A stretch of DNA of 64,000 nucleotides, taken from contig NZ_AUBQ01000005.1 in NCBI RefSeq assembly GCF_000429325.1, positions 186,001-250,000 on the forward strand. Direction: 5' to 3'. The stretch comes from Fundidesulfovibrio putealis DSM 16056. GTDB lineage: Bacteria; Desulfobacterota; Desulfovibrionia; Desulfovibrionales; Desulfovibrionaceae. Below are positions 4,301 to 32,946 of the stretch, in pieces; position 1 is the first letter of the stretch, and every line of letters begins with the position of its first letter. The notes under the pieces were generated by a model. The model made no database searches. It was not told the origin of the DNA and saw nothing but the letters and a program-made list of their open reading frames with translations. The position numbers were made by a program, and so were the translations under genes.

Positions 4301-4380
4301 TTGTCCCCGGTGTCCCCGGTCAAAATGACGTGGGGGAGAGAAAACAGCCGCTCCAACGTCAAGGGAGGGTGGTCCTGTGA
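1357..4380 (+). CDS. DUF927/Toprim primase-helicase of the integrative element
   Basis: A 1007-residue replication protein. The ATG at 1357 overlaps the previous stop as ATGA; the frame is open further upstream, but that part shadows the earlier genes. Residues about 30-75 form a degenerate zinc-ribbon-like primase N-terminus. A Toprim-like region follows (VLLVEGEK near 212-219, IWPDADKPG near 259-266). A DUF927 ATPase region starts near 349, with a Walker A-like SSSCGKTT near 543-550, an acidic Walker B-like CFVTLDEIG near 589, and a sensor strand WRVLFMSTG near 632. The last 100 residues are low complexity (TGDTGDT and VPGVPG) because the DNA carries many ACCGGGGAC repeats. Such proteins start and unwind replication of satellite phages, ICEs or plasmid-like elements. 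Confidence 0.85.
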   Translation: MTAPRIDFARVNAAALSSLESLLPRWLPGGRVNGSEYVCGSLDGEAGRSLSVNLTTCVWKDFAGEAGGADPVSLYAAIHNLKQGEAARKLAGELGVDPGGNGSAPRPQGQAKAKPADEWRPVLPVPDGAPAPDFKHMRHGQAVAHWEYRDATGMLLGYVCRFEPEGGRKEILPLTVCQNVNGQRAWRFKGFPEPRPLYGLDRLAAAKPDAPVLLVEGEKSTDAAQRLVPGAVCLSWPNGSRSVGKADFSPLAGRRVAIWPDADKPGFEAALVLAARVKDAGAREVSIILPPDGSADGWDLADAEAEGWTPEQVKSHIKAHKRDVVGFEAVARERYGIEAKPAAKPTPQGWFPFKVRADGVYFLEDDGEPSLLCSPLAVLAMTRDGEGREWGRLLEVVDSDGKAHRWAMPMSALAGDGQEYRRELLSMGLRPAGGMKAKNRLHDFLTLSRPEARARCVSRVGWHDRRFVLPDAVYGSQDGEEVILQGGPSDHAFRIAGSLQDWQEAIGRYCPGNTRLVLAVSAALAAPLLKLTGEESGGFHLVASSSCGKTTALRVAGSVCGGGGINGYLRQWRATDNALESVSSGACDCFVTLDEIGQADAKTAGAVAYMLTNGQGKARSRRDGTARKPQEWRVLFMSTGEITLADKVREDGRGRVMAGQQVRVVDIQADAGAGFGLFENVHGFDGSAAFVRHLNEKAKSIYGSPLRAFLDKLAGRIDEFSQAAPAFIREFMAEVCPCDADGQVSRVAGRFGLVAAAGELGISLEVLPWPKGEARQAAARCFRDWLDARGGSGAAEVTAGLAQVRQFFQVNGASRFETWGEASQDAKTINRAGFRRKDENTGEWSFYVFQDVFKGEVCQGHNSGMILRELKSLGLLLVQDAEHLTVKPRIPGVGSGTRFYHVAPGITGDTLKQRTLQNSPGTNGDTGDTLPRFGSHVPGSENATGDTGDTSSGSVGFVPGCPRSPEEYRGRQEASNDAMSPVVPGVPGQNDVGERKQPLQRQGRVVL
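4075..4320. repeat. Cluster of 12 copies of ACCGGGGAC in both orientations (iteron-like)
   Basis: Within the 3' end of the primase gene the 9-mer ACCGGGGAC occurs exactly six times on the plus strand (starts 4075, 4113, 4132, 4186, 4195, 4259). Its reverse complement GTCCCCGGT occurs six times (starts 4165, 4228, 4238, 4293, 4303, 4312). The two orientations are largely grouped, with direct copies to the left and inverted copies to the right, and several lie 9-10 bp apart. The protein frame passes through without a stop. This resembles a replication origin with iterons placed inside the initiator gene, which is inference. Confidence 0.7.
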
Positions 4381-4784
4381 ACGCCCTGGCCTGGATGAAG
4401 TCAACAGGCGTGGCGGTGGACTTGACCTCGGAAGGTGGCCTTGAACTGGATGGACTCGAAAGCCTGGACGATGGGATTTACGCCCGCGTCCTGGACGTGG
4501 CCCGCGCTCACAAGGCGGAGATCGTGGCGGAGCTTAAAAACGTCAATATGACGGGTTTGGACATTCCGGCACGCGGGGAGGCCGCGCCCGCTCCTCCCGA
4601 TGCTTCCCCCCTGGATGCCCTGGCCCGGTTCGAGCGTGACCCTCGCGGCGTCGTGGCGTGGCTGGCCCAACAGAAGCAAGGACAGCCCCCGCACCTTGTC
4701 GAGCGGTGGGCCGCTACAATCCGTGCCGAGGCCCGTTTGCGGATTGCCGAAGCTGAAGGAGTGGCTGACCATGGCCGCGCCTGA
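4377..4784 (+). CDS. Hypothetical protein with TubC-docking-like N-terminus
   Basis: 135 residues from a GTG that overlaps the primase stop (GTGA). The first 55 residues (LAWMKSTGVAVDLTSEGGLE ... ARAHKAEIVAELK) have the strand-strand-helix pattern of the TubC N-terminal docking-type domain: a glycine-containing beta hairpin and a conserved HKAEIVAEL helix. Such domains are frequent in small proteins of mobile elements. The rest is a Pro/Ala linker and a charged helix. It overlaps the start of the nuclease gene by 14 bases, so the two are probably co-translated. Role unknown. Confidence 0.55.
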   Translation: MNALAWMKSTGVAVDLTSEGGLELDGLESLDDGIYARVLDVARAHKAEIVAELKNVNMTGLDIPARGEAAPAPPDASPLDALARFERDPRGVVAWLAQQKQGQPPHLVERWAATIRAEARLRIAEAEGVADHGRA

Positions 4785-5313
4785 CGCTGCGCTCCCCCTC
4801 ATCGTGGACAGCCGGGAGCTGGCCCCCTACGCCTTCGAGCGGTTCCCGGTTGAGATCGTCCGGGCTGGACTGCCGACAGGGGATTACAGCCTATCCGGGC
4901 ATGAGGACCGCGCCGCCGTCGAGCGCAAAGCCCTGGATGACCTCATAGGCTGCCTGACCGTGGGCCGTGACCGCTTCGAGCGGGAGCTTGACCGTGCCCG
5001 CTCCCTGGAGTGCTTCGCCGTTGTGGTCGAGGCCAGCATGGAGGACGTGGCCCGACATCGCTACACGTCGCGCATGTCCCCGCACGCGGCCTTGCAATCA
5101 ATCCTGGCCTTTCAGGTGCGCTACGGCTGCCCCTTCGTATTCGCAGGGTCCAGGCAGGGCGGGGAGTACGTCACATACTGGACGCTTCAGAAGTACGCCC
5201 GCGAGGTTGAAGCTCAAGCCGTGGCCGAGTTGGAGGACTTGGGCCGAAGGAAGGCAGCCAGGGGAAAGGTAGGCATGACTGACAATGCAGAGAGAGAACA
5301 GGGAACGCCATGA
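4771..5313 (+). CDS. ERCC4-type (XPF-like) nuclease
   Basis: 180 residues from the ATG at 4771, inside the end of the preceding gene. It shows the ERCC4 nuclease core: LIVDSREL with D13 near the N-terminus, GDYS around 37-40, and the hallmark V-E-R-K-x3-D-L-I at about 50-58, followed by helices and TYWTLQKYAREVE. XPF/MUS81-family nucleases cut branched or flap DNA. In a mobile element next to a primase this would act in replication-intermediate or recombination processing. Its length is typical of stand-alone phage and ICE versions without the C-terminal HhH2 domain. Confidence 0.8.
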   Translation: MAAPDAALPLIVDSRELAPYAFERFPVEIVRAGLPTGDYSLSGHEDRAAVERKALDDLIGCLTVGRDRFERELDRARSLECFAVVVEASMEDVARHRYTSRMSPHAALQSILAFQVRYGCPFVFAGSRQGGEYVTYWTLQKYAREVEAQAVAELEDLGRRKAARGKVGMTDNAEREQGTP

Positions 5314-5447
5314 CGCCCAACTACGTGGCACAGAATAACGCTATTCAAACGCAAACACGGCCCGTCTCCTTCACCTGGGGGCGGGCCGTTGTCGTTTGTC
5401 TGGGTGGGGCACCGATGTTGTTGACCACCGACAGGGCCAATGAGTAA
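5310..5447 (+). CDS. Possible 45-residue ORF coupled to the nuclease gene
   Basis: An ATG at 5310 overlaps the nuclease TGA (ATGA) and opens MTPNYVAQNNAIQTQTRPVS..., ending at 5447. The coding part runs across the first hairpin of repeat array 1 (5357-5389). The DNA of its second half recurs near 7179-7360 without an equivalent coupled start. It may be a leader or chance reading frame rather than a gene; only the overlap supports it. Confidence 0.25.
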   Translation: MTPNYVAQNNAIQTQTRPVSFTWGRAVVVCLGGAPMLLTTDRANE

Positions 5448-5710
5448 GTTGTAGCGTCTCGGCGAGAAGACGGCCTGTTGGAGAAAGGTTCCGCCGCTCG
5501 CCCTTGTCGGCCAGACCTTGCGCGTCAGCAGGCGGGGTGCTCGTCTCTTCGGAGGCGGGCACCTGGAAATTCCGGTGTCCACGCGAGAAGACACGCCCGG
5601 CGTTGAAAGGCCACGCCTCTCGCTTTTGTCGGCCATGCCTTGCATTCCCCCGGGCAGGGTGCCCGCCTTTTCGGAGGCGGGCACTTCCGATACTGGCGTC
5701 GTGGGACGGG
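5357..5710. repeat. Hairpin repeat array 1 (leader hairpin plus two ~120-bp units)
   Basis: A gene-poor 398-bp space lies between the plus-strand nuclease gene and the minus-strand operon ending at 5712. A leader hairpin (5357-5389, arms ACGGCCCG/CGGGCCGT) and a conserved segment ending GCACCGATGTTGTTGACCAC are followed by two imperfect units of about 122 bp. Each unit opens near a CGAGAAGAC box and closes with a 26-nt hairpin of the form GTGCYCG...CGGGCAC (5537-5562 and 5659-5684). Array 2 has the same layout. Possible roles are bidirectional terminators, a structured RNA, or protein-binding sites. Confidence 0.65.
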
Positions 5711-5711
5711 G

Positions 5712-5888
5712 TTAAGTCTTCGGCTTCTCGGAGTTCGTATCACCCGGCGTCTCGCCCTTCGGAGTGGACAATTTCTGTTCTTCGGCCTTGGCGGCGTTGT
5801 CCAGTATCTTTGAGGTCAGGAGCAGGGCCGCCAGGGATTCCGGGGTGTCCCAATTCACATCCTCGTCCTTCAGCGTTCCGTTGAGCAT
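5712..5888 (-). CDS. Small conserved element protein (paralogue of the 8,575-8,817 gene)
   Basis: 58 residues from the ATG at 5888, which has AAGGAG 7 bases upstream. A longer frame from a GTG at 6011 overlaps the preceding stop but lacks a site. The core DVNWDTPESLAALLLTSKIL is followed by a charged Lys/Glu/Pro tail. The same D-V-x-W-x3-E-S-x-A-A-L-x-L-x2-K-x-L-D pattern occurs in the protein encoded at 8,575-8,817, so the element holds two members of one family. Last gene of the minus-strand repressor operon. Function unknown. Confidence 0.65.
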   Translation of the reverse strand: MLNGTLKDEDVNWDTPESLAALLLTSKILDNAAKAEEQKLSTPKGETPGDTNSEKPKT

Positions 5889-6007
5889 TGGCGTTCTCCT
5901 TTGTATGTGGGGCGGGAGCACGGCGCGTGTCTCCTCTGCAATCGCCCTGGAAAAAGAAGTCCCTGCCGGGGCCTTTGAGCATCGGGCAGAGGTCATGATC
6001 CAGCCTG

Positions 6008-6163
6008 TCACCGCTTCCCTTCGCGCTCCTTCAGCCGGTCAAAGTCCAGCGACGACACTCCAGCGGTTTTTTGTCGGGGCGACAACGCCCGCCAGATGAG
6101 GGCGACAACACCGACGACAACGACAATAACCGAGGCGACAAAACGGGCCAAGGCGCGGATCAT
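6008..6163 (-). CDS. Small single-pass membrane protein
   Basis: 51 residues, MIRALARFVASVIVVVVGVV..., with one membrane helix at about 8-27 and a charged C-terminal tail (LDFDRLKEREGKR). The ATG shares a base with the stop of the upstream repressor gene (TGATG), so it is coupled to it. It is the third gene of the operon 6572 to 5712. Such tiny membrane proteins next to CI-like repressors may act in superinfection exclusion or as toxin-like peptides, but nothing in the sequence decides this. Confidence 0.6.
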   Translation of the reverse strand: MIRALARFVASVIVVVVGVVALIWRALSPRQKTAGVSSLDFDRLKEREGKR

Positions 6164-6360
6164 CAGACTTCCTCGAACAGGTCTTTCACCCTCACATCCA
6201 GCGCGCTGGCGATGGCCTCAAGGGTTTCCATACGACATTGACGGAATTCGTTCCCTCGCAGGCGCTTGATTGTACGTTCAGCCAGGTTCGCGTCTGTCGC
6301 CAAACCCTGGATGGTGACGCCTTGCTCCTCCATTATTTCCCTGAGCCTTCCTACAATCAC
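6163..6360 (-). CDS. Cro/CI-type helix-turn-helix repressor (second of a tandem pair)
   Basis: 65 residues from a GTG at 6360 that overlaps the stop of the upstream repressor (GTGA). The HTH runs through LREIMEEQGVTIQGLATDAN, LAERTIKRLRGN and METLEAIASALDVRVKDLFEE, the full XRE-family five-helix fold with no extra domain. It closely resembles its neighbour, so the pair arose by tandem duplication. It probably controls the divergent promoter region 6,573-6,730 or the element's replication genes. Membership of the family is clear; the target is inferred. Confidence 0.8.
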   Translation of the reverse strand: MIVGRLREIMEEQGVTIQGLATDANLAERTIKRLRGNEFRQCRMETLEAIASALDVRVKDLFEEV

Positions 6361-6572
6361 GCCTGTCCTTCTGGCCCAACCTCTTCGTACAAGTCCTTCG
6401 TTTTCACCTTCAGCGCCCCGGCGATGACCGCCAGGGTTTCGAGCGCACAGCGAGAGATCATCGCCCCACGGGCACGGTTGACGGTCTGCATGGAAAGCCC
6501 CGTCCTTGAGATCAATTCGCGCATGGTGACGCCCTGGCTCTCCATGGTTTCCTTGACTCTGCTCGTTATCAT
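6357..6572 (-). CDS. Cro/CI-type helix-turn-helix repressor (first of a tandem pair)
   Basis: 71 residues. The ATG at 6572 is chosen because AGGAG lies 6 bases upstream; an ATG at 6593 lacks a site. XRE fold: VKETMESQGVTMRELISRTG, then LSMQTVNRARGAMIS, then LETLAVIAGALKVKTKDLYEE. It leads a four-gene minus-strand operon and is divergent from the gene at 6731, a typical arrangement for a lysogeny-type switch. Confidence 0.8.
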   Translation of the reverse strand: MITSRVKETMESQGVTMRELISRTGLSMQTVNRARGAMISRCALETLAVIAGALKVKTKDLYEEVGPEGQA

Positions 6573-6730
6573 GTCCGTCTCCTTTGCTCTCATATATCAA
6601 ATCAAACCTTGCCCCGTCTGCTGCGATAAAGTAGAGCAGACCCGTCAGGAAGAGTCCAATTGAAACGGCCCTGGAAGGTGCAACGAACACCCGCCAGGGC
6701 CTAACCACAACCCATGAAGGAGCATGAATC

Positions 6731-6967
6731 ATGGCTGACAGTGAAGTAACGACGAAGGCTGAGACTGACAAGGCGGTTGGCGCTCAAATGGATCTTCTGA
6801 AGGCTTGGGACATCTTGCGTTTTCTGTCTAAGTCGGTGTCTGATGGAAATATATTTGAGAGCGGCGAAATTGAGGGGCTTGGATTCCTCCTGGAGCACTG
6901 CGGCAATTTGCTGTGGCCTGCAATAGACGCCTTGGCCTCTCTCCCTAAGGAGGTACGCCATGCATAA
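6731..6967 (+). CDS. Small hypothetical element protein
   Basis: 78 residues from the ATG at 6731, with GAAGGAG 8 bases upstream. Acidic N-terminus, then helical segments (AQMDLLKAWDILRFLSKSVS and GLGFLLEHCGNLLWPAIDAL). It is divergent from the repressor operon and overlaps the next small frame. The pattern, a short alpha-helical protein with a conserved C-G-N-L-L-W, resembles anonymous small proteins of related mobile elements, but I cannot name a family. Confidence 0.6.
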   Translation: MADSEVTTKAETDKAVGAQMDLLKAWDILRFLSKSVSDGNIFESGEIEGLGFLLEHCGNLLWPAIDALASLPKEVRHA

Positions 6968-7014
6968 CCCCTCAATTAATCCTCAGGACGTGAGCGGCCC
7001 CGTCCTGGAGGTTC

Positions 7015-7152
7015 ATGGACGCGGGTGCCGCTTTGGAGCGTCTGGCGGAGCTTCTGACGCGAAACGATAATGCCGAGGATCGTGGGTTGGCCTTCACACT
7101 ACGCTGTATCTCTGGGCGCATCATGTCCGCCGCAGGCGTCCTGGACGGCTGA
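7015..7152 (+). CDS. Possible 45-residue element protein
   Basis: MDAGAALERLAELLTRNDNA...SAAGVLDG from the ATG at 7015, with GGAGG 4 bases upstream and TGA at 7150-7152. It is helical and amphipathic and lies directly before hairpin array 2. A competing frame from the ATG at 6960 (after AAGGAGGT) gives a 36-residue peptide of no clear character. The 7015 frame looks more protein-like. Confidence 0.45.
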   Translation: MDAGAALERLAELLTRNDNAEDRGLAFTLRCISGRIMSAAGVLDG

Positions 7153-7178
7153 ACGGACTTCGGGGGATCGAATGAACG

Positions 7179-7600
7179 CGGCCCGTCTCCTTCACTTGGG
7201 GGCGGGCCGTTGCCGTTATGACTGCTAGATAAAACTAGAGGTTCAACGGCTGGCATCGAAGTGGGAAAACTGCTGGTAGTGGTCCGGGAAGCATGGGGAC
7301 GGTGCCGTTGTCGTCGGGGCGGCACCGATGTTGTTGACCACCGGCAGGACCAGTGAGTAAGTTTGTTGCGTCTCGGCTGGCAGACACGCTTGGGGTCGAG
7401 CGGGGACTGACGCCAGCCGCCCCGTCCTGCCCGCGAATTCCCCCAGGTAGGGTGCCCGTCTCTTTGGGGGCGGGCACTCGGGTTTTTCGTCTCGGCGAGA
7501 AGACGCGTCCGAGGTCGAAAGGGTCCGCGTCTCGCTACTGGCTCGCCCTTGCTTTCCTTCAGACGGGGTGCCCGGTTCCACCTTGGAGCCGGGCACTTGT
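7179..7600. repeat. Hairpin repeat array 2 (leader hairpin plus two ~117-bp units)
   Basis: A 547-bp gene-free stretch (7153-7699) between convergent transcription units, laid out like array 1. The leader hairpin is at 7179-7209 (arms CGGCCCG/CGGGCCG). A conserved segment GCACCGATGTTGTTGACCAC lies near 7330. Two units carry hairpins at 7452-7477 and 7568-7596, 116 bp apart, again GTGCCCG...CGGGCAC. The arms pair perfectly while the loops vary. The rest of the space (7601-7699) shows nothing I recognise. Confidence 0.65.
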
Positions 7601-7699
7601 CTTGTGGATCATGCCGAATATGGAGGGCGGCCATGAGTGTTGCCGCCTTTGCCTACCGAGCAAGACGTGCATTCATGGAAAGATAATCTTTAGATAGGT

Positions 7700-7861
7700 C
7701 TACGTGTCTGTCCAAAATGCAGCGGAGAAAAACGCAATCAAAACTAGCGCGATGATGGCACAGACACATTTTTCGACGGGATAATCGTGAAAGATCTTGC
7801 CGCAAGTAGGACAATCATTCCTGTTAAGACCATAAAATCTGCAATCAGGACAGTCTTTCAT
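7700..7861 (-). CDS. Small zinc-ribbon membrane protein
   Basis: 53 residues, MKDCPDCRFYGLNRNDCPTC..., with two CxxC knuckles (C4/C7 and C17/C20) forming a zinc ribbon, then a hydrophobic helix VCAIIALVLIAFFSAAFW and a short tail. It ends with TAG at 7700-7702. It follows the 51-residue membrane protein gene by 11 bases and is the last gene of a three-gene minus-strand operon. AT content is higher than in the core genome. Function unknown; a membrane-anchored zinc ribbon suggests an adaptor or sensor role. Confidence 0.6.
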   Translation of the reverse strand: MKDCPDCRFYGLNRNDCPTCGKIFHDYPVEKCVCAIIALVLIAFFSAAFWTDT

Positions 7862-7872
7862 GGGGGACAACC

Positions 7873-8028
7873 TTAATTCAGTAAGAACAATCCCAGAATG
7901 ATAGTTCCAGCCAGGGATATAAAAAAAGCAACATCCCAGATGCGATCTTTTTTGAGTTGCTCCTCAAACTGACCGACAATCTGTTCACAGTCGGCAAGAA
8001 CTTGGCGGGAGTTCCATTGGCGCGTCAT
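7873..8028 (-). CDS. Small single-pass membrane protein with coiled N-terminus
   Basis: 51 residues from the ATG at 8028, which overlaps the stop of the upstream gene (ATGA). The first 30 residues are a charged amphipathic helix (VLADCEQIVGQFEEQLKKDR), followed by a C-terminal membrane helix (VAFFISLAGTIILGLFLLN). A longer frame from 8055 would overlap the upstream gene. It belongs to the 8246-to-7700 operon. No family recognised. Confidence 0.55.
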   Translation of the reverse strand: MTRQWNSRQVLADCEQIVGQFEEQLKKDRIWDVAFFISLAGTIILGLFLLN

Positions 8029-8246
8029 ACGGCCTTGCCTTGCCAATGCTGACAAACGGGTAGCGGCACGCGAAATCCCCTGACGATGTGCAGCACTTGC
8101 CCGATATCTAGGAATAACGGCCCATCGAAACAGGGCCGGGTTGTGCCCGTTAGAGCAAATTTACAGACTCCGACTACGGCCCATTCAACGTGCATCCACT
8201 TGGGTTCGTGTCGACAGGTGAGACAAACAGCGTGATGAGAAAACAT
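8025..8246 (-). CDS. Small Cys-rich hypothetical protein
   Basis: 73 residues, MFSHHAVCLTCRHEPKWMHV... Cysteines at 8 and 11 (CLTC) followed by H-E-P-K-W, then Cys 28, Cys 39 and a C-terminal PVCQHWQGK suggest a small metal-binding fold of the kind seen in phage proteins with a CxxCxxxPxW motif. First gene of the operon with two tiny membrane proteins, linked by ATGA overlap. The start is weakly supported, with no clear ribosome site. Confidence 0.5.
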   Translation of the reverse strand: MFSHHAVCLTCRHEPKWMHVEWAVVGVCKFALTGTTRPCFDGPLFLDIGQVLHIVRGFRVPLPVCQHWQGKAV

Positions 8247-8574
8247 CTCGACATATTATCAGTACTGAAGGACTGATCAAGGTAGGAGTCCACGTATCGT
8301 TTGTGCGGGGATTGAAGGAAAGACGCCTGACTAACCCACGCCTTCTACATATTTATCGTATTTGTATTGAGTAGTCGGGAATTGAGTGGCCGACCAATCC
8401 CCCCATGTATTTCCCCGAGAGCCCTGCGAACTCCTTGGGTGGCACCCGCAAGAACAGGATCACGCAGATCATACGCATGGGCTCCCCCACAGGCTCTTGT
8501 TGGGAAGCCGGTTCATTCTCGGCGGTTGACGGTTCCACGGAGATTGCGGGAGGGTCAGGGCCGGTGAAAAGGCG
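8247..8574. other. Stretch with only a doubtful minus-strand ORF (8353-8538)
   Basis: The minus-strand frame at 8353-8538 (61 residues from a GTG, with an inner ATG at MRMICVILFLRVPPKEFAGL) is in the same frame as the gene ending at 8575 and is separated from it only by that TGA. It could be the continuation of a longer ancestral protein or a separate small gene. Positions 8247-8352 show no gene, hairpin or promoter that I can support. Confidence 0.3.
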
Positions 8575-8940: not shown

Positions 8941-9150
8941 ATGCCCGCTCTCTTCGATCCTCTCCGCGCCCTTCGCTCCATGCACGTTGAAGTCTTCCTT
9001 CGGGATGGCCAGGGGTTCCTACGCTTCGACAGGAAGCACACGAACGTCCACAAGGACGAAGCCTGGGGGATAGCTGCCAAACACGGCTGGCTCATTCGGA
9101 TGCAGTTGGAGAATGGTGGCGCGTCGGTGCAGAAGCTCGTGGCCTACTGA
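8941..9150 (+). CDS. Small hypothetical protein
   Basis: 69 residues, MPALFDPLRALRSMHVEVFL..., ending at TGA 9148-9150. The strand-rich middle (VEVFLRDGQGFLRFDRKHT) and helix (DEAWGIAAKHGWLIRMQLEN) look like a compact alpha/beta fold. Composition matches the element rather than the AT-rich gene that follows. No Shine-Dalgarno sequence is obvious, so the start is uncertain. Confidence 0.45.
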   Translation: MPALFDPLRALRSMHVEVFLRDGQGFLRFDRKHTNVHKDEAWGIAAKHGWLIRMQLENGGASVQKLVAY

Positions 9151-9538
9151 AGTGTATATAGCTTTTGACGACTCAAATTGTTTTGCACTAGAACGAGCTA
9201 AAAAAATGTGAGGTTAGCCGATGACTTGCAACTCAGAACAGCAAAGCAAAGAAAAAAACATAAGAAATCAGAACTGTTCACTCCAAAGTTTCTGGACTCC
9301 CTCAGGGGCGCGTTAAAAGCTGCTCCCCAAAAAGCGCCCTCAAGATTGACGAAAAAAGACATCGTTATGGCTTTGAAAGATGAGATATTTGATCTCGTTG
9401 AACGAGGGTATTCTTATGGAAATATCTGTGATATTTTAGGCGATAAAAATTTTAAAATTAGCCCGATTGTAACCCTCCCCTAGAATAGGACCAGCGAAAA
9501 GTTGAGATTTCTGGCAAAGCAGCCCCACGGAGGGAGCG

Positions 9539-9805
9539 ATGCGGAAATCTCGTTTTTCTGAAAGCCAGATTGTCAGGATTCTCAAGGATGCCGAGGCGGG
9601 CCGATCCATCTCGGACCTGTGCCGCGAGAACGGCATCAGCTCGACGACGTTCTACAAGTGGAAGACCAAGTTCGGCGGCATGGAGGCGTCTGACGTTCGC
9701 CGTTTGAAGGAACTTGAGGCTGAGCATAGTCGCCTGAAGCAGATGTACGCCGACCTGAGCCTGGAAAACCGGGCCTTGAAGGATGTGATCGCAAAAAAGT
9801 TGTAA
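9539..9805 (+). CDS. IS3-family transposase OrfA
   Basis: 88 residues, MRKSRFSESQIVRILKDAEA..., the standard OrfA of the IS407/IS3 group. A helix-turn-helix (SISDLCRENGISSTTFYKWK) is followed by a leucine-zipper-like coiled coil (LKELEAEHSRLKQMYADLSL), which mediates oligomerisation and end binding. Near its end, A-AAA-AAG at 9793-9799 directs -1 frameshifting to make the OrfAB transposase; without the shift, translation ends at TAA 9803-9805. Confidence 0.95.
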   Translation: MRKSRFSESQIVRILKDAEAGRSISDLCRENGISSTTFYKWKTKFGGMEASDVRRLKELEAEHSRLKQMYADLSLENRALKDVIAKKL

Positions 9806-10647
9806 GGCCAGACGACAAGCGCGACCTGGTCACCTACGTCCGCATCGAGCACGGGCTGAGCCTTCGCAGAGCCTGCCATGCCTTCGGCTTGAGCAGGACC
9901 GTGTACTGCTACCAGCCCAAGGCATCGGAAGACGGCCTGGTGATCGAAACGCTGGTCAGTCTGGCCGAACGATTCCCGCGATTCGGCTTCGGCAAGCTGT
10001 TCCCCTTGGTTCGCAGGCAACAGCCGACTTGGAACCACAAGCGGGTGTACCGCGTGTATTGCGAGCTGAAACTGAATCTGCGCCGGAAAGGCAAGAAACG
10101 CCTGCCGTCGCGGCATCCTGAGAAGCTGGCCGTGCCTGCGGCAGCCAACGTGTGCTGGTCTGTGGACTTCATGAGCGACGTGCTGATGAGCGGGCAACGA
10201 TTTCGCACGTTCAACGTGCTCGACGACTTCAACCGGGAGGCACTGGCTATCGAGGTGGACACCACTCTGCCGGCCGCCAGGGTCGTCCGGGTGTTGGACC
10301 GGGTGACGGCCTGGAGAGGCTGCCCGGCGAAGCTCAGGATGGACAACGGCCCCGAGCTTATTTCAGTAGCCCTGGCGGACTGGGCGGAACAACGTGGTGT
10401 GGTGTTGGAATTCATCCAGCCCGGCAAGCCAACGCAGAACTCGTACATCGAGAGATTCAACCGCACCTTCAGACACGAGGTGCTGGATTTCTACGTGTTC
10501 AGCAGGCTGAGCGAAGTCAGGGAGATCGTGGAGGACTGGGTGAAGCAGTACAATGAACAGAGGCCCCATGAGTCGCTCGGAGATCTCACGCCCTCCGAGT
10601 ACCTCGTCTTCAACTCACCGGAGGTCTCAACTTTCGACTGGCACTAA
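9799..10647 (+). CDS. IS3-family transposase OrfB (DDE integrase domain, made by -1 frameshift)
   Basis: The frame continues from GTT at 9799 after slippage on A-AAA-AAG, reading VVRPDDKRDLVTYVRIEHGL. It has an HTH_21-like segment (ERFPRFGFGKLFPLVRRQQP) and the rve core with the DDE residues in WSVDFMSD, RMDNGPEL and NSYIERFNRTFRHE, then the typical tail YNEQRPHESLGDLTPSEYL. It is intact to TAA 10645-10647. An internal GTG at 9889 could start a shorter OrfB alone. Confidence 0.93.
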   Translation, partial: VVRPDDKRDLVTYVRIEHGLSLRRACHAFGLSRTVYCYQPKASEDGLVIETLVSLAERFPRFGFGKLFPLVRRQQPTWNHKRVYRVYCELKLNLRRKGKKRLPSRHPEKLAVPAAANVCWSVDFMSDVLMSGQRFRTFNVLDDFNREALAIEVDTTLPAARVVRVLDRVTAWRGCPAKLRMDNGPELISVALADWAEQRGVVLEFIQPGKPTQNSYIERFNRTFRHEVLDFYVFSRLSEVREIVEDWVKQYNEQRPHESLGDLTPSEYLVFNSPEVSTFDWH

Positions 10648-20752: not shown

Positions 20753-20925
20753 CTGGGTTTCCTGTCGGTCGTAAGAGCGTCGGCCCCCAGGGCGGAAGCG
20801 TCCAGGGGGCCAGAGATACATTGCAGGCGCGGTCACCACGCCCGCTGAGGGAGCAGCCTTCAATCCCCCCAGTTCCGGCAAGGGCTTCGCGGGGGAGTGC
20901 GCGCGTGCGGACTCATGCGCGAAGC

Positions 20926-20980
20926 CGACAGCCGGGTCCAGGGGGAGGCTTCTCCCCCTGGCCGCCGGAGGCGTCTTCGA
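20926..20980. repeat. Intergenic GC-rich palindromic repeat
   Basis: The palindrome CCAGGGGGAGG-CTT-CTCCCCCTGG, followed by CCGCCGGAGGCG, sits between frr and uppS. Related copies are at 22.30, 27.66, 29.0, 30.0, 32.85, 33.67 and 62.88 kb. It could fold into a strong hairpin and act as an attenuator or mRNA stabiliser. Confidence 0.7.
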
Positions 20981-24184: not shown

Positions 24185-25660
24185 ATGGACTCCTGCGTTC
24201 ACCAGAGGCCCCCTGTCGCGCCCCGGCTTGCCGGAGCGCTCCTGCTTGCCGCCGGATTCGGGTTGGCATGGCTGGCCTGCGCGGCGCTGCCGCAGCTGCA
24301 CTACGCCGAGAGCTACCCGCTGTTTCGCCGCCAGCAGCTCCCGGCCTCCGCCTATTTCGACCCGGCCCGCGCGGCCGAGCCAAGGCACGCCTTCGTGGGG
24401 GCCAGCTACATCATAAACGCCTGGGTGGACAACGACCTGGACGCCAAGGGCTGGCCCGCCCTGGAGGACCCTTCAAGTTCCTACGCTGCCACGGCCCGGC
24501 TGGCCGCGCAGCGCGAGTTCGACGCGCCCGGCCAGGGCTTCTACGACATGGGCCGCCTGGGAGCCGGGTTCCTGGAGCACCTCTGGTACGTGAACCAGGC
24601 GCTCAAGGCCCCGAACCTGAAGACGGTCGTATACGCCACGGGCCACACCAACCTGACCCATTTCACCGAGACCCCCTGGACCGACGTGGAGCGCTCCTGC
24701 CTGGAGACGGCCTACATCCTGGAGCAGTGGAAGCTGCGCTATCCGGCGGCTGGCCCGGCCATCGACGAGTACGCGGCGCTGCTTAAAGCCTCCCCGGCCT
24801 ACGCCAGGGCGCTTGAGCGCTTCGGAGCGGACTGGCGCTCCCGCCTGGACGTGAGGGAGGTGTTCCTGACGGACACGCCCCGTCAGGCCCTGGCCAACGC
24901 GGTGCAGAGCGGCAGCCACTATCGCTCTGCGGCGGGCGTCCGGGGCAATCCGCACCTGGCCGTGAACAAACCGGCCGAGCTTCGCGACGCGCTTATCTGG
25001 AACACATCGCTTCTGGCGCGCTACGGCGAAGAGTCGCGCCAGCGCCGCACCCTGTCGCTCCTGGACCAGAACGCGGCAGTCCTGGGCGACCTCCGCCTGG
25101 ACGCGCCCGTGCTACTGAACCCCTCCCGCAACCCCTTCGACGGCCCGGAGGCCGCAGCCAACCGCGCCTGGACCCGCATGGTGGGCGAAGTGCTGCGCGA
25201 GGCCGGGGTCAGGCTGGTGTGGTTCTTCCCTCCCGAGGTGAGCATCACCCCGCAGGACTACCAGCGCCACTACCGGCCCGGCTTCGTGGACGCCGTGCGG
25301 GACATCCTCTTGCCCATGGGGCACGTGGTCAGCGACCACGTACTGGACCATGGGCTCAACCAGCGCGAATTCATCATGGAGTCGGACTCGCCCCCGCATC
25401 AGACCGGATACAAGCCGGGCTCCGTGGGCAAGCTCAAGGCCGTGCGGCTGCTGCTGGCGGACATGACCCGCGCCGGGGCCTTTCCCGGCAGGCTGGCCCC
25501 CGGTCCGGAGACGCTCTCGGGGAGCCCTGGGGCGCTTGGGTCCTGCTGGCCGGGCGAGGCGCGCCTGCCTGTGATCCCTTTCTGCGTGCGGGACTTCTCC
25601 CTGCGCGGCTCAGGCGGCTGCCTGCCCTGGCCGAAACCCGTAACGGGAGACGTGCGATGA
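24185..25660 (+). CDS. DltD-like SGNH-type envelope acyl-transfer protein
   Basis: 491 residues from the ATG at 24185. One N-terminal membrane anchor (about 15-37) precedes a large extracytoplasmic domain. HAFVGASYIINAW carries a G-x-S nucleophile like that of DltD/AlgX-type SGNH proteins, and a late D-S-P-P-H-Q-T-G-Y-K supplies an Asp-x-x-His pair. It is the first gene of an operon with a DltX-like peptide, carrier protein, adenylating enzyme and MBOAT, so it probably completes acyl transfer to a surface polymer. Sequence similarity to classical DltD is limited; context carries much of the call. Confidence 0.65.
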   Translation: MDSCVHQRPPVAPRLAGALLLAAGFGLAWLACAALPQLHYAESYPLFRRQQLPASAYFDPARAAEPRHAFVGASYIINAWVDNDLDAKGWPALEDPSSSYAATARLAAQREFDAPGQGFYDMGRLGAGFLEHLWYVNQALKAPNLKTVVYATGHTNLTHFTETPWTDVERSCLETAYILEQWKLRYPAAGPAIDEYAALLKASPAYARALERFGADWRSRLDVREVFLTDTPRQALANAVQSGSHYRSAAGVRGNPHLAVNKPAELRDALIWNTSLLARYGEESRQRRTLSLLDQNAAVLGDLRLDAPVLLNPSRNPFDGPEAAANRAWTRMVGEVLREAGVRLVWFFPPEVSITPQDYQRHYRPGFVDAVRDILLPMGHVVSDHVLDHGLNQREFIMESDSPPHQTGYKPGSVGKLKAVRLLLADMTRAGAFPGRLAPGPETLSGSPGALGSCWPGEARLPVIPFCVRDFSLRGSGGCLPWPKPVTGDVR

Positions 25661-25785
25661 AACTGTCCGACGCTGCGCTGTCGCTGCTGGCGGGGGCGCT
25701 GGTGTTCTGCGCGCTCTCGCTGCTCATAAATCCTGAGGTCACCGGGGTGCGCATCGCCTGGGGGACCTTCTACGGAGCATTCTAG
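25657..25785 (+). CDS. DltX-like 42-residue membrane peptide
   Basis: MKLSDAALSLLAGALVFCAL... ends in ...AWGTFYGAF. The ATG overlaps the upstream stop (ATGA), with GGGAG 7 bases before. One membrane helix (about 5-24) is followed by a short external C-terminus with Y39 and F42, a Y-x-x-F ending. Gram-positive DltX is likewise a tiny single-pass peptide with a conserved C-terminal aromatic motif holding a functional tyrosine. The operon position between DltD-like and carrier-protein genes supports the match; the role here is inferred. Confidence 0.6.
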   Translation: MKLSDAALSLLAGALVFCALSLLINPEVTGVRIAWGTFYGAF

Positions 25786-25787
25786 CC

Positions 25788-26030
25788 ATGTCGCAAAAAA
25801 ACATGGACGATTTGACGGCCTTCATCGGCCAGACGTTGCGGTCCGGGACGCTCGGTCCCGACGCGGGCATGGGCCGCACCAGGGGGTGGGACTCCCTGGC
25901 GCACGTGAACCTGATACTGGCCCTGGAGACCTGGGCCGGTGTTCCCGTGCCGCCCGAGCTCATGGGCGAGCTGACCACGGTCGAGGCGCTGGCTTCCTGG
26001 CTGCGCGCCCAGGGAGTGCTTGCCCAGTGA
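25788..26030 (+). CDS. Acyl/aminoacyl carrier protein (DltC-like)
   Basis: 80 residues. The four-helix carrier fold has the phosphopantetheine attachment serine S36 in RGWDSLAHVNLILALE. The following W-D-S-L and the acidic helix (PPELMGELTTVEALASWL) resemble DltC more than fatty-acid ACP. Its stop overlaps the adenylating enzyme start (GTGA), so the two partner proteins are made together. Confidence 0.85.
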   Translation: MSQKNMDDLTAFIGQTLRSGTLGPDAGMGRTRGWDSLAHVNLILALETWAGVPVPPELMGELTTVEALASWLRAQGVLAQ

Positions 26031-27646
26031 GCCTGCCTTCCGATCTTTCGCTTCTGCATGAGACGGTATGGCACTGGGCCGAGCGCACCCCCGAAGCGCC
26101 CGCCGTGGTGGGGTCGCGCGGGGCGCTCAGCTATTCGGCCCTGGCCCTTCAGGCCGGGCGCGTGGCACGCGTGCTTCAGGACCTGGGATTTTCGCGCGGG
26201 GCGAGGGCTGCGCTCCTCATGGACGGCTCCGTGGAGTGCTGTGTGGGCATGCTGGCCTGCCTGCGCGCGGGGGGCTGCTACCTGCCGCTTGGCGTAGGCA
26301 ACCCGCCAGCCCGTCTGGCTGCGGTCATCCGCGACGCCGAACCCGAGGCGGTGATGACCGTCAGCGCCCTGGTTCCGCTGCTGGTCCAGGCCTTGGAGCT
26401 GGCCGGGGTCTGCCCCAAGGCGGTGATCGTGCTGGACGGTCCGCCCGAACCGGGCGAAGGGGGCGCGCCCGCCCTGGCGTGCCGGATGCTCGTCCCGACG
26501 GATTTCGCCCATGCGCCAGCGCCCAGGCCGTGTCCGTCCATCGGGGCGGATCTGGCCTACATCCTGTACACCTCCGGCTCCACGGGGGTGCCCAAGGGCG
26601 TGATGGTGCGCCACGACAACGTGCGGGCCTATCTGGGCTGGATGGCGCGCCACTTCGGGATCAGTCCGGCCGACCGGTTCTCGGGCCACGCCAGCCCCAC
26701 CTTCGACATCTCCGTACACGACATCTTCGGGGCCTTTTTCAACGGCGCGTCGGTGCATCCGCTGGAAACTCCGGCCCAGAAGGCCTTTCCCGGCCCGTTC
26801 ATAGCCTCGCGCGGCATCACCTGCTGGAACTCGGTGCCTTCCGTGATCGCCATGATGGTGCGCTCCCGGCAGCTGACGCCGGGGGCCTTCCCCAGCCTGC
26901 GTCTGGCGGTGTTCGCGGGCGAGCCTCTCGCGCCCGGCCTGGCCAAGGCCTGGCTGGACGCCCTGCCGCACTGCGAGCTGTACAACAACTACGGCCCCAC
27001 CGAGACCACCATCGTGGTCACGGCCCACAAGGTGACGCAGGTGGACCTGGGCAAACCCGTGCCCATCGGCAGGCCGACCTCTCCCACCGAGTGCCTGATT
27101 CTGTCGCCGGGGAGCATGCTGCCCGCCGGGCCGGGGCTGCCGGGCAGGCTGTTCGTGCGGGGCGCGCAGGTGAGCGCCGGGTACTGGCGCAGGCCGGAGC
27201 TGACGCACAAGGCCTTCGTGCCGAACCCGCTTCAGCCCGACATCAACGACATTCTCTACGATACCGGCGATCTGGCCTTTCGCGACGAATCCGGCGTGAT
27301 CCATTACGTGGGCCGCGCGGACAATCAGGTGAAGATACGGGGACACCGGATCGAGCTTGGCGACGTGGAAGCCGCACTGGCAAGCTTGCCGGGCGTGGTG
27401 GAGGCGGCGGTGCTGGCGGTGGCGGGGCGGGACGAGGCGGAGCTGGCGGCCTGCGTCTCCGGGCCTGCCGCAGACGTGTCCGACGCGGAGAACGCCCTGC
27501 TGTTGGCGCTCTCCGAGGCGCTCCCGGCCTACATGCTGCCGCATCAGGTTTATTTCTTCGACGAACTCCCCAAGAACGGCAACGGCAAGACGGACAAAAA
27601 AGCCCTGGTTTTGCATGTCGAGGCGCTCATGCGGGAGCAGACATAA
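26027..27646 (+). CDS. Amino-acid/acyl adenylating enzyme (DltA-like, NRPS A-domain type)
   Basis: 539 residues from a GTG at 26027. ANL-superfamily motifs: ILYTSGSTGVPKGVMV (A3, near 179-194), LYNNYGPTE (A5, near 318-326), YDTGDLAF (A7, near 411), VGRADNQVKIRGHRIELGDV (A8) and NGNGKTDKKAL (A10 lysine near 522). It would activate an amino or carboxylic acid as adenylate and load it onto the carrier protein. The overall layout is that of D-alanine:carrier ligase DltA; the actual acid is not decided by the sequence. Confidence 0.85.
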   Translation: MSLPSDLSLLHETVWHWAERTPEAPAVVGSRGALSYSALALQAGRVARVLQDLGFSRGARAALLMDGSVECCVGMLACLRAGGCYLPLGVGNPPARLAAVIRDAEPEAVMTVSALVPLLVQALELAGVCPKAVIVLDGPPEPGEGGAPALACRMLVPTDFAHAPAPRPCPSIGADLAYILYTSGSTGVPKGVMVRHDNVRAYLGWMARHFGISPADRFSGHASPTFDISVHDIFGAFFNGASVHPLETPAQKAFPGPFIASRGITCWNSVPSVIAMMVRSRQLTPGAFPSLRLAVFAGEPLAPGLAKAWLDALPHCELYNNYGPTETTIVVTAHKVTQVDLGKPVPIGRPTSPTECLILSPGSMLPAGPGLPGRLFVRGAQVSAGYWRRPELTHKAFVPNPLQPDINDILYDTGDLAFRDESGVIHYVGRADNQVKIRGHRIELGDVEAALASLPGVVEAAVLAVAGRDEAELAACVSGPAADVSDAENALLLALSEALPAYMLPHQVYFFDELPKNGNGKTDKKALVLHVEALMREQT

Positions 27647-27659
27647 CGTCTGATACACT

Positions 27660-27735
27660 CCGGCAACCGGCGCGAAGCGGAAAGGGTGTCCAGAGGGCGA
27701 AGCCCTCTGGCCGCCGGAGGCCTTCTTCAACGGTG
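27660..27735. repeat. Intergenic GC-rich palindromic repeat (within the dlt-like operon)
   Basis: Between the adenylating enzyme and MBOAT genes: CCGGCGCGAAGCGG, then the palindrome CCAGAGGGC-GAAG-CCCTCTGG and CCGCCGGAGGCCTTC. It belongs to the family at 20.9 and 29.0 kb. It may tune expression of the last gene. Confidence 0.6.
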
Positions 27736-27787
27736 CCTCCCCGCTCCCCGAATATAACAACGCAACCAGAGACGCACTCTCCGCAGC

Positions 27788-28990
27788 ATGCTCAACTACT
27801 ATTCCGAACTCACCTTCTACGCGCTGATCATCCCGGCGCTCATCGCTTATCGCCTGATCTCCCCGCGCCTGTCGCCGGGGTGGCGCGCCGCCGCGCTCTC
27901 TCTCGTCTCTCTGCCGTTCCTGGCGCTCCTGTCCGGCGGGCGCACCTTCCTGCCGCTGCTCCTTGCCAGCGTGGCGCTCCTGTATGTCGGCGTCCGGCGC
28001 GTGCGGGCCGGGGGGCGCGTGTGGCCGTGGGGGGTGCTGTGGGTGGCGCTCCTGGTGCTGGCCAAGCACCCGGTGTACGTGTCCTGGCTGCCGCTTGTCG
28101 AAGAAGGCGGCGCGCGCATCTCCGGCTGGGGCTGGATGGGCTTCTCCTACTTCGTGTTCCGGGCCATCGACGCCCTGTTCCAGGCCCGCCGCAAGGACCT
28201 GGCCTTCGGCCTGCCCGAGACCGCCGCGCTGGGCCTGTACTTCGCGCCCTACGTGTCCGGCCCGGTCAACCGCGTGGCCACCCTGGCCAAGGACCTCTCC
28301 GCGCCGGACGCGCCGCTCGATTTCCAGCGGACGCGCGCCGCCATTATCCGCATGAGCCTTGGCGTCATCAAGATCCTGCTGCTCTCCAAGTGGGCCTATT
28401 TCTCAAGCGTGGCCGCGCCGGAATTCCTGGACGCGCGCCTGCCGGGGCTCTTCGGGCTGGCGCTTGGGGCCTGGGCCTACTACCTGTTCATCTATTTCGA
28501 CTTCTCCGGCTACACGGACGTGGCCGTGGGCCTGTCCGGGCTGTTCGGGGTGCGCCTGCCCGAGAACTTCAACAGGCCCTTTCTGGCCGCCAACATCCAG
28601 GAGTTCTGGAACCGCTGGCACATGAGCCTCTCCACCTGGTTTCGCGACTACCTGTTCTTCCCGTCGCTCAAGTCGCTGCGCATGCGGCTTCCGTGGCTCA
28701 ACCCCCAGGCCGCGCAGGCCGGGGCGCTGTTCGTCACGTTCCTCTCCATGGGAGCCTGGCACGGCGACGGCCTCAACTGGGTGGTGTACGGGCTGTTCCA
28801 CGGCTCATCCATGGCCCTGTGGTCGCTGAAACGCTGGCTGGAGGATTCCCACGCGCCGGAATTCTTCAGCGCTTTGCGTGAGAACGCGGCGTATGTCTGG
28901 CTCTGCCGCGCCTTCACCTTCAACTATATCAGCTTCGGGCTGCTGCTCATGCTGGACTTCAAGACCCTCGCGCTGCTTCTGGCGGGTTGA
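27788..28990 (+). CDS. MBOAT family membrane acyltransferase (DltB-like)
   Basis: 400 residues with about ten membrane helices. MBOAT signature: YFDFSGYTDVAVGLSGLFGV, LPENFNRPFLAANIQEFWNR, WHMSLSTWFRDYLFFP, and the histidine pair H325 (MGAWHGDGLNWVVYG) and H338 (GLFHG). As DltB it would move acyl groups from the carrier protein across the membrane to the DltX-like/DltD-like partners. It ends the operon, 140 bp after the adenylating enzyme. Confidence 0.88.
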   Translation: MLNYYSELTFYALIIPALIAYRLISPRLSPGWRAAALSLVSLPFLALLSGGRTFLPLLLASVALLYVGVRRVRAGGRVWPWGVLWVALLVLAKHPVYVSWLPLVEEGGARISGWGWMGFSYFVFRAIDALFQARRKDLAFGLPETAALGLYFAPYVSGPVNRVATLAKDLSAPDAPLDFQRTRAAIIRMSLGVIKILLLSKWAYFSSVAAPEFLDARLPGLFGLALGAWAYYLFIYFDFSGYTDVAVGLSGLFGVRLPENFNRPFLAANIQEFWNRWHMSLSTWFRDYLFFPSLKSLRMRLPWLNPQAAQAGALFVTFLSMGAWHGDGLNWVVYGLFHGSSMALWSLKRWLEDSHAPEFFSALRENAAYVWLCRAFTFNYISFGLLLMLDFKTLALLLAG

Positions 28991-28997
28991 TGCAGGA

Positions 28998-29116
28998 AGA
29001 GCTGGGCTCCGCCCAGACCGGCAGGGCGCTGCCCCTGCACCCCGGCGGGCTCCGCCCTGCACCCGCCAGGGGGAGAAGCCTCCCCCTGGACCCGGCTTTC
29101 CGCTTCGCGTCGTGTG
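28998..29116. repeat. Intergenic GC-rich palindromic repeat, long copy
   Basis: An ordered chain of small palindromes: GGGCTCCGCCC, GGCAGGGCGCTGCC, CACCCGCCAGGGGGAGAAGC with its CTCCCCCTGG partner, then GACCCGGCT and GCTTCGCGTCGTGTGC. It is almost the same as the copy at 32,847-32,946. Confidence 0.75.
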
Positions 29117-29123
29117 CGGTTAG

Positions 29124-32846: not shown

Positions 32847-32946
32847 AGAGCTTGGGCTCCGCCCAGACCCGGCAGGGCGCTGCCCTGCACCCGCCAGGGG
32901 GAGAAGCCTCCCCCTGGACCCGGCTATTGGCTTCGCGTCGTGTGCA
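32847..32946. repeat. Intergenic GC-rich palindromic repeat, long copy
   Basis: The same ordered chain as at 28,998-29,116 (GGGCTCCGCCC, GGCAGGGCGCTGCC, CCAGGGGGAG...CTCCCCCTGG, GCTTCGCGTCGTGTGC), placed after the efflux gene. The near identity of the two long copies points to recent dispersal or gene conversion. Confidence 0.75.

Follow-up and report, generated by a model that had tools for sequence, protein, structure and literature searches.

A five-gene operon found at positions 24185–28990 in a stretch of 64,000 nucleotides of the genome of Fundidesulfovibrio putealis DSM 16056 (contig NZ_AUBQ01000005.1, positions 186,001 to 250,000; the whole stretch is referred to below as the window) probably encodes a relative of the Dlt machinery that has diverged from it, and would use a variant of the tyrosine-shuttle mechanism of DltX/DltB with a microprotein as separate acyl shuttle. 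All genes of the operon lie on the forward strand in the order D-X-C-A-B and encode a protein in the position of DltD (D, 24185..25660, 491 aa); a microprotein with a single transmembrane segment, a predicted DltX-like acyl shuttle ending in TFYGAF (X, 25657..25785, 42 aa, MKLSDAALSLLAGALVFCALSLLINPEVTGVRIAWGTFYGAF); a carrier protein (C, 25788..26030, 80 aa); an amino-acid adenylation enzyme scoring below the DltA cut-offs (A, 26027..27646, 539 aa counted from GTG); and a DltB-like membrane-bound O-acyltransferase (MBOAT) without a C-terminal shuttle tail (B, 27788..28990, 400 aa). Genes D and X overlap by four bases (ATGA), genes C and A overlap at GTGA, and genes A and B are separated by 141 bp. 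The gene order and the limits of the operon given in a preliminary description of this DNA, with a tiny membrane peptide after D, proved exact.

Distribution of the operon

A search with a three-row profile of B at E ≤ 1e-50 showed the presence of related operons in 6 of 285 genomes of the family, namely, G000 (the genome of the window), G006, G005, G454, G004 and G002. Genes of all five proteins D, X, C, A and B were found together in each of the six operons, in three gene orders. The order D-X-C-A-B is represented in G000, G006 and G005, and also in G454, where it follows a gene designated Y; the order is B-Y-X-D-C-A in G004 and X-D-Y-A-B-C in G002. The six operons correspond to about four independent sequences, G000, G006 and G005 being mutually close; D of G006 (locus L009) is 93% identical to that of the window. 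Absence of the peptide from homologous operons, named in the preliminary description as an argument against a DltX role, was looked for, and X was present in 6 of 6.

Searches with D gave counts that are lower bounds, since the genome sets are samples in which a limited number of candidates was scored per genome. The sequence of D had matches in at least 3 of 59 relatives, its own genome included, and none in viral contigs or plasmids; in the set genome_contigs, one locus was found, that of the 93% identical relative. The three-row profile of D matched at least 1 of 395 genomes of the phylum (its own) and at least 4 of 288 genomes of the family, and the profile built from the six-row alignment of D matched at least 3 of 178 genomes of the order, each already represented in the profile.

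Protein Y, of about 255 aa with a cysteine cluster (C...CxGxCC), is encoded within or next to the operon in three of the six cases, the window not being among them. Its copies lie at 7470-8243 of L022, at 9116-9889 of the reverse complement of L028 and at 5270-6031 of L029. No Pfam match was obtained for the two copies scanned (L022 and L029), and no Y was found in the genome of the window by a search that had no positive control.

The microprotein X

In the mechanical list of open reading frames (ORFs), X is buried in a frame of 188 aa starting at 25219. Comparison of the window with L009 (G006) showed 8 synonymous and 0 non-synonymous base changes within X, and 3 synonymous and 34 non-synonymous changes in the part of the 188-aa frame upstream of the ATG of X; because the purifying pattern begins at this ATG, the start of X was placed at 25657. 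For the pair of the window and L010 (G005), the rates of non-synonymous and synonymous substitution (NG86) are dN 0.22 and dS 0.93. Judged by these substitutions, X is a real coding gene, and the 42-residue membrane peptide with a Y-x-x-F end and ATGA coupling, as first described, is thereby confirmed.

A single hydrophobic segment spans residues 6-24 of X, where the Kyte-Doolittle value peaks at 2.51. The length of X across the six operons is 42-51 aa; in G002, where the longest frame has 82 aa, X was taken to start at an internal Met, giving 49 aa in the alignment. The C-termini are TFYGAF in three operons and GYYSQF, VFYGKF and VYYAQF in the others. Tyr39 (position -4, codon 25771-25773, forward strand) and Phe42 (position -1) are invariant in all six operons and are the only invariant residues of the C-terminal half. 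The motif of the six operons is thus xZYxxF, where Z is F or Y, with an aromatic residue at -5 in 6 of 6; of the C-terminal tyrosine motif of DltX, to which the peptide had been likened, Y-x-x-F is kept and FxYxxF is replaced by xZYxxF.

Ends of the form (F.|.[FY])Y..F are rare in ORFs of 30-70 aa: they were found in 1 of 12,400 such ORFs when the window was shuffled 20 times by mononucleotide, which is a rough null, and in 5 of 781 ORFs of eight real loci, each of the five an X gene. This latter count leaves out the X genes of the window, L010 and L029, which lie in longer open frames, and the off-pattern ORF of L061.

The acyltransferase B and its pairing with X

B is, on sequence comparison, a DltB-like MBOAT: it matches solved DltB structures at E 2.5e-33 and the DltB profile in hhalign with a probability of 100%, and scores 186.3 bits (E 9.8e-55) against the NCBIfam model TIGR04091 (DltB), the cut-off of 375 not being reached. 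His325 (28760-28762, forward strand) and His278 are invariant in the six operons. In DltX, the acyl group is carried by the tyrosine of the C-terminal FxYxxF, the acyl-tyrosine shuttle being established for DltX and PatA, and in other MBOATs the motif is fused to the enzyme on two extra helices (PMC12148441; papers are cited here by PMC identifier, each for excerpts of its text). B of the window ends in FKTLALLLAG and has no fused FxYxxF of the PatA type. Four other MBOATs of the same genome match B and have the fused ends FIYAQF, FIYFQF, FIYFSF and FLYFQF.

Across 395 genomes of the phylum, that of the window included, a six-row profile of B had at least 26 matches (E ≤ 1e-47), distributed over 20 genomes; no more than 4 candidates per genome were scored. 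Fused MBOATs account for 21 of these matches, all ending in FxYxxF, and five are tail-less. A separate small ORF ending in Y-x-x-F was found by three of the five tail-less enzymes: in the window (TFYGAF), in G406 (FVYNAF) and in G262 (FVYVRF). Directly after the tail-less MBOAT of G336, there is a 45-aa ORF ending in FRYLNV, which is off-pattern and was chosen by eye after the pattern search. The pairing of tail-less MBOATs with separate motifs suggests that X supplies the shuttle part missing from B. The likeness of the peptide to DltX claimed in the preliminary description is borne out by its single hydrophobic segment, its invariant Tyr39 and Phe42 and its tail-less, DltB-like partner.

The loci of G262, G336 and G427 were inspected. 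Locus L032 (G262, 18-2241) encodes a tail-less MBOAT, an SGNH-like protein and a 46-aa ORF ending in FVYVRF, and reads as a polysaccharide gene cluster; the contig begins within the MBOAT, GDSL models score below cut-off, and the names in this cluster are partly our own reading. It is perhaps a separate shuttle outside Dlt. Locus L061 (G336, 2844-8363) encodes two adenylation enzymes, one of them fused to a carrier domain, an SGNH-looking protein, the tail-less MBOAT and the FRYLNV ORF. The tail-less MBOAT of L053 (G427) occupies 1450-2748 and has 432 aa.

Two phylogenetic trees of MBOATs were built. In the tree of 30 rows, from which G262 was left out as a partial sequence and in which the last 90 residues of the fused proteins were trimmed, the six B proteins form a clade of their own (100/99), not placed inside the DltB clade. 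With midpoint rooting, this clade joins a clade of Gram-positive DltB, DltB of G406 and the MBOAT of a Klebsiella plasmid at 97/93, and 15 fused MBOATs lie on one side of a branch supported at 100/99. The tree of 31 rows with tails kept retains the B and DltB clades and leaves their mutual relation open. The placement of Leptolinea, G336 and Klebsiella, all on long branches, is uncertain in these trees.

Adenylation enzyme A and carrier protein C

A scores 363.4 bits against TIGR01733 (amino acid adenylation), passing the cut-off of 317.4, and its best PDB matches are modules of nonribosomal peptide synthetases (NRPS). Against the DltA models TIGR01734 and NF003417, it scores 252.9 and 256.7 bits, below the cut-offs of 559.85 and 476. 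At the position of the DltA cysteine, A of the window has Ala (VFAGE), in place of the FFCGE of S. aureus; Cys occurs there in 0 of 6 operons, and the adenylation enzyme of the Klebsiella plasmid also has no D-Ala-selecting Cys. Further pocket positions differ from DltA, and the pocket residues differ among G000, G004, G454 and G002. The Asp of motif FD and the Lys of A10 are retained in A. At the GrsA positions, the ten pocket residues read DIHNVANIVK.

In C, Ser36 of GWDSL, the phosphopantetheine site, is invariant in the six operons. C scores 19.5 bits against PF00550 (PP-binding; cut-off 20.8), and in NCBIfam it meets no DltC model and matches weak acyl-carrier models only.

These data bear on the view that the operon is an ordinary Dlt system, in which A is merely a diverged D-alanine ligase and D-alanine is placed on lipopolysaccharide or another outer-membrane component, as in Bordetella dra, which reportedly decorates the outer membrane with D-Ala (PMC4448142). 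The same five parts, the match of B to DltB, the retained Asp and Lys, and the presence of DltA models among the nearer NCBIfam matches of A agree with it. Selection of D-Ala is attributed to Cys269 at the base of the pocket in B. cereus DltA (PMC8972799, PMC4176424), and Ala at this position, with the other pocket differences, speaks against a D-alanine ligase; yet the C269A mutant, with relaxed preference, still prefers D-Ala (PMC4176424), so Cys to Ala alone does not exclude D-Ala. None of the DltA, DltC and DltD models is matched above cut-off here, whereas in the canonical dlt operon of G406 both DltB and DltD, and DltA against one of its two models, score above cut-off; moreover, the pocket residues vary among the operons as if cargos differed. 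An ordinary Dlt system is therefore considered unlikely, and the cargo is probably not strictly D-alanine.

The NRPS-type adenylation score of A and its NRPS-module matches would also fit a pathway to a small secreted metabolite, in which a building block would be loaded by A and C, acylation or export of the product would fall to B and D, and X would be structural only. However, no condensation, thioesterase or tailoring gene was recognised in the frames of 20-33 kb, the neighbours having had no family search, none of the six operons has lost any of the five Dlt-type parts, and B and X are paired as in surface acylation systems, which makes such a pathway improbable, somewhat more so than an ordinary Dlt system.

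The protein D

D has no match in Pfam or NCBIfam, the DltD models PF04914 and TIGR04092 included; a search of the genome of the window with PF04914 found nothing, and phmmer and hmmsearch against the PDB gave no meaningful match for D. Its likeness to DltD comes from fold comparison. The fold models have a mean predicted local distance difference test (pLDDT) of 56.1 and a predicted template modelling score (pTM) of 0.60 for D of the window, and 58.7 and 0.62 for D of G454. Compared with the PDB, the model of the window gave PatB and TesA at Z 9.8-9.9 and DltD at Z 9.7 with the most residues covered (245), and for the model of G454 the top four rows were all DltD (Z 10.4-10.9, 244-250 residues); in such comparisons, a best Z of 7-8 is usual without a true match, and a common fold proves no function. 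On these models D looks SGNH/DltD-like, at low confidence, with an N-terminal hydrophobic helix (residues 11-34 in the model).

Ser74 of GASY (24404-24406, forward strand), at G+2 as in DltD, is the candidate nucleophile and is kept in G000, G006 and G005; D of G454, G004 and G002 has Cys one alignment column further. No His is invariant in the six sequences: His404 of the window is kept in G006, is Tyr in G005, and is absent from G454, G004 and G002. Four control sequences of DltD all retain S70, D358 and H361.

Proposed route of the acyl group

The following route is proposed for the operon, with acyl-tyrosine chemistry, topology, direction of transfer, cargo and acceptor as we infer them. 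The substrate activated by A would be a carboxylic acid, most likely an amino acid and not strictly D-alanine, which A would load onto the phosphopantetheine of C; B would then take the acyl group from the carrier thioester across the membrane and pass it to Tyr39 of X, whose C-terminus is expected at the periplasmic face. This first half of the route would follow from homology with DltB and DltX. In the second half, which is more conjectural, X would hand the acyl group to D, which is anchored in the membrane and tentatively assigned an SGNH/DltD fold; an extracytoplasmic acceptor other than teichoic acid would then receive it from D, or from X while bound to D. Since the DltD-type His is not conserved in D, the final transfer may proceed by chemistry other than that of SGNH enzymes; other residues of D may be used, or D may chiefly hold X and the acceptor.

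Teichoic acid is an unlikely acceptor because the TagF-type family PF04464 was searched for in the genome of the window and is absent. In G004, frames that we read as polysaccharide-deacetylase-like and glycosyltransferase-like precede the operon, and their position beside it hints at a glycan as acceptor.

The least probable alternative is a structural or assembly role for X in the MBOAT complex, in which it would carry no acyl group and Y-x-x-F would serve for docking. The departure of the first motif position from FxYxxF would conform to this; against it stand the invariance of Tyr39 and Phe42, both part of the catalytic motif in DltX and PatA (PMC12148441), and the lack of a tail on B able to supply this motif.

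Several observations weigh against a separate tyrosine shuttle with a DltD-type partner. X does not have the canonical FxYxxF, Phe being absent at -6, and the Pfam scan of X gave 0 families at E ≤ 1, hence no match to PF12459 (DltX), for which the control, S. aureus DltX, gave 53.2 bits; the FxYxxF X proteins of Klebsiella and G406 were missed by PF12459 as well, so this miss says little about X of the window. Tail-less MBOATs outside the six operons are few, and for that of G427 no X was found in the flanks examined. D was rejected as a sequence member of DltD, with a profile-profile probability of 2.7% over 57 columns, and the Asp-x-x-His of DltD is not conserved among the six D proteins. 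The fold comparison is built on weak models, as their pLDDT values indicate; two designed scaffolds lie near the SGNH rows, at Z 9.3-9.4, in the comparison for the window; and Foldseek placed DltD first for D of the window (E 0.24) and 15th for D of G454 (E 0.63), with no E below 0.1 for either protein.

A further possibility, to which we give clearly less weight, is that the six operons represent a distinct class of envelope aminoacylation, with the motif shifted to an aromatic residue at -5, a cargo varying by operon, a partner of DltD fold that has lost the Ser-His-Asp chemistry and has Ser or Cys but not the His of DxxH, and an acyl group leaving Tyr39 by an undescribed mechanism, perhaps straight from X to the acceptor. 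Variation of the cargo is suggested because the adenylation pockets differ. If the divergent Dlt relative with a separate shuttle is real, separate shuttles are not confined to canonical Dlt or to Gram-positives, the motif is reduced at its core to Y-x-x-F with a nearby aromatic residue, and some Gram-negatives may decorate the envelope with amino acids besides D-Ala.

Genomic context

By our own reading of the frames, without a database result, the operon is flanked by rpsB on the opposite strand on one side and by a multicopper-oxidase region on the other. A dispersed repeat of 54-90 nt with the palindromic core GGGGAGGCTTCTCCCCCTGG was found at 20918-20971 (inverted), 29028-29117 and 32856-32945. 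The core has three exact copies in the window, against an expectation of 0.07 in shuffles with up to 3 mismatches allowed; every copy of the repeat lies near the end of a frame that we take for a gene, and one of them directly follows the MBOAT.

The Gram-negative status of the host was taken from the Desulfovibrionaceae affiliation of a near relative (a metagenome-assembled genome), not from genes of lipopolysaccharide synthesis. LpxC (PF03331) was not detected in the genome of the window, which is 99.99% complete, and 4 of 14 control genomes were positive in the same search; a different deacetylase may serve lipid A synthesis in this genome, or the search may have overlooked LpxC.

Comparison with known systems

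The acyl shuttle was reportedly defined in a paper of 2023. The Gram-positive system DltX-DltA-DltB-DltC-DltD has in common with the operon of the window the five kinds of parts, a separate single-transmembrane X ending in Y-x-x-F, a tail-less MBOAT and, at low confidence, the predicted fold of D. It differs in that A of the window is without the Cys that selects D-Ala and scores below the DltA cut-offs, C matches no DltC model, D has neither a DltD profile match nor a conserved DxxH, X has no Phe at -6, and the MBOAT belongs to a separate clade. The designation 'complete dlt-like operon' of the preliminary description accordingly holds for the five parts and the DltB-like B, and fails for A, C and D, which miss the models of DltA, DltC and DltD.

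That description had also singled out the presence of such an operon in a Gram-negative genome; the host is taken to be Gram-negative, and this presence is less special than that wording suggests, given G406, enterobacterial plasmids with X, and Bordetella dra. The genome G406 (locus L060), also of the Desulfovibrionaceae, contains a canonical dlt operon with parts A, B, C, D and X, where X is likewise separate. Its DltB (392.9, cut-off 375) and DltD (223.7, cut-off 150) pass their models; its A keeps FCGE, passes NF003417 (552.1 of 476) and narrowly misses TIGR01734 (532.7 of 559.85); its C matches DltC models below cut-off (41.8 of 68); and its X ends in FVYNAF, unlike TFYGAF of the window. 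Bordetella dra, a Gram-negative D-alanine system at the outer membrane (review PMC4448142), is likened here by description, not by sequence. Judging from these sequences, a Gram-negative Dlt system with a separate X is not unique to the window.

In the published excerpts, DltX is treated as Gram-positive (PMC10903887), and a paper of 2025 states that bacterial MBOAT acylation pathways besides Dlt are without a DltX-like microprotein (PMC12148441). Among the matches listed in our literature search, which comprised titles and the beginnings of abstracts and left subscription papers mostly uncovered, nothing was found on a Dlt-like operon of Desulfovibrio or on a Gram-negative DltX, nor was the divergent clade with its shifted motif, non-DltA pocket and altered D found described there.

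On plasmids of Klebsiella electrica and Enterobacter cloacae (L012 and L017), also Gram-negative, genes D and X overlap by 4 bases and the MBOAT is tail-less, as in the window. The plasmid X has 40 aa, is annotated as 'hypothetical protein' and ends in FEYQKF; the plasmid operon differs in its order, D-X-B-A-C, and in a D that matches PF04914 (79.3 bits), and it had no megablast match in 20,395 records of E. coli. A plasmid of Leptolinea contains a 47-aa ORF ending in WIYQGF ahead of a tail-less MBOAT. The PatA-PatB and other MBOAT-SGNH pairs for O-acetylation differ from the operon in having the motif fused to the MBOAT, an acyl-CoA donor and no carrier protein (PMC12148441); they have in common with it the acyl-tyrosine shuttle, here predicted for X, and four MBOATs with fused motifs are encoded in the genome of the window itself.

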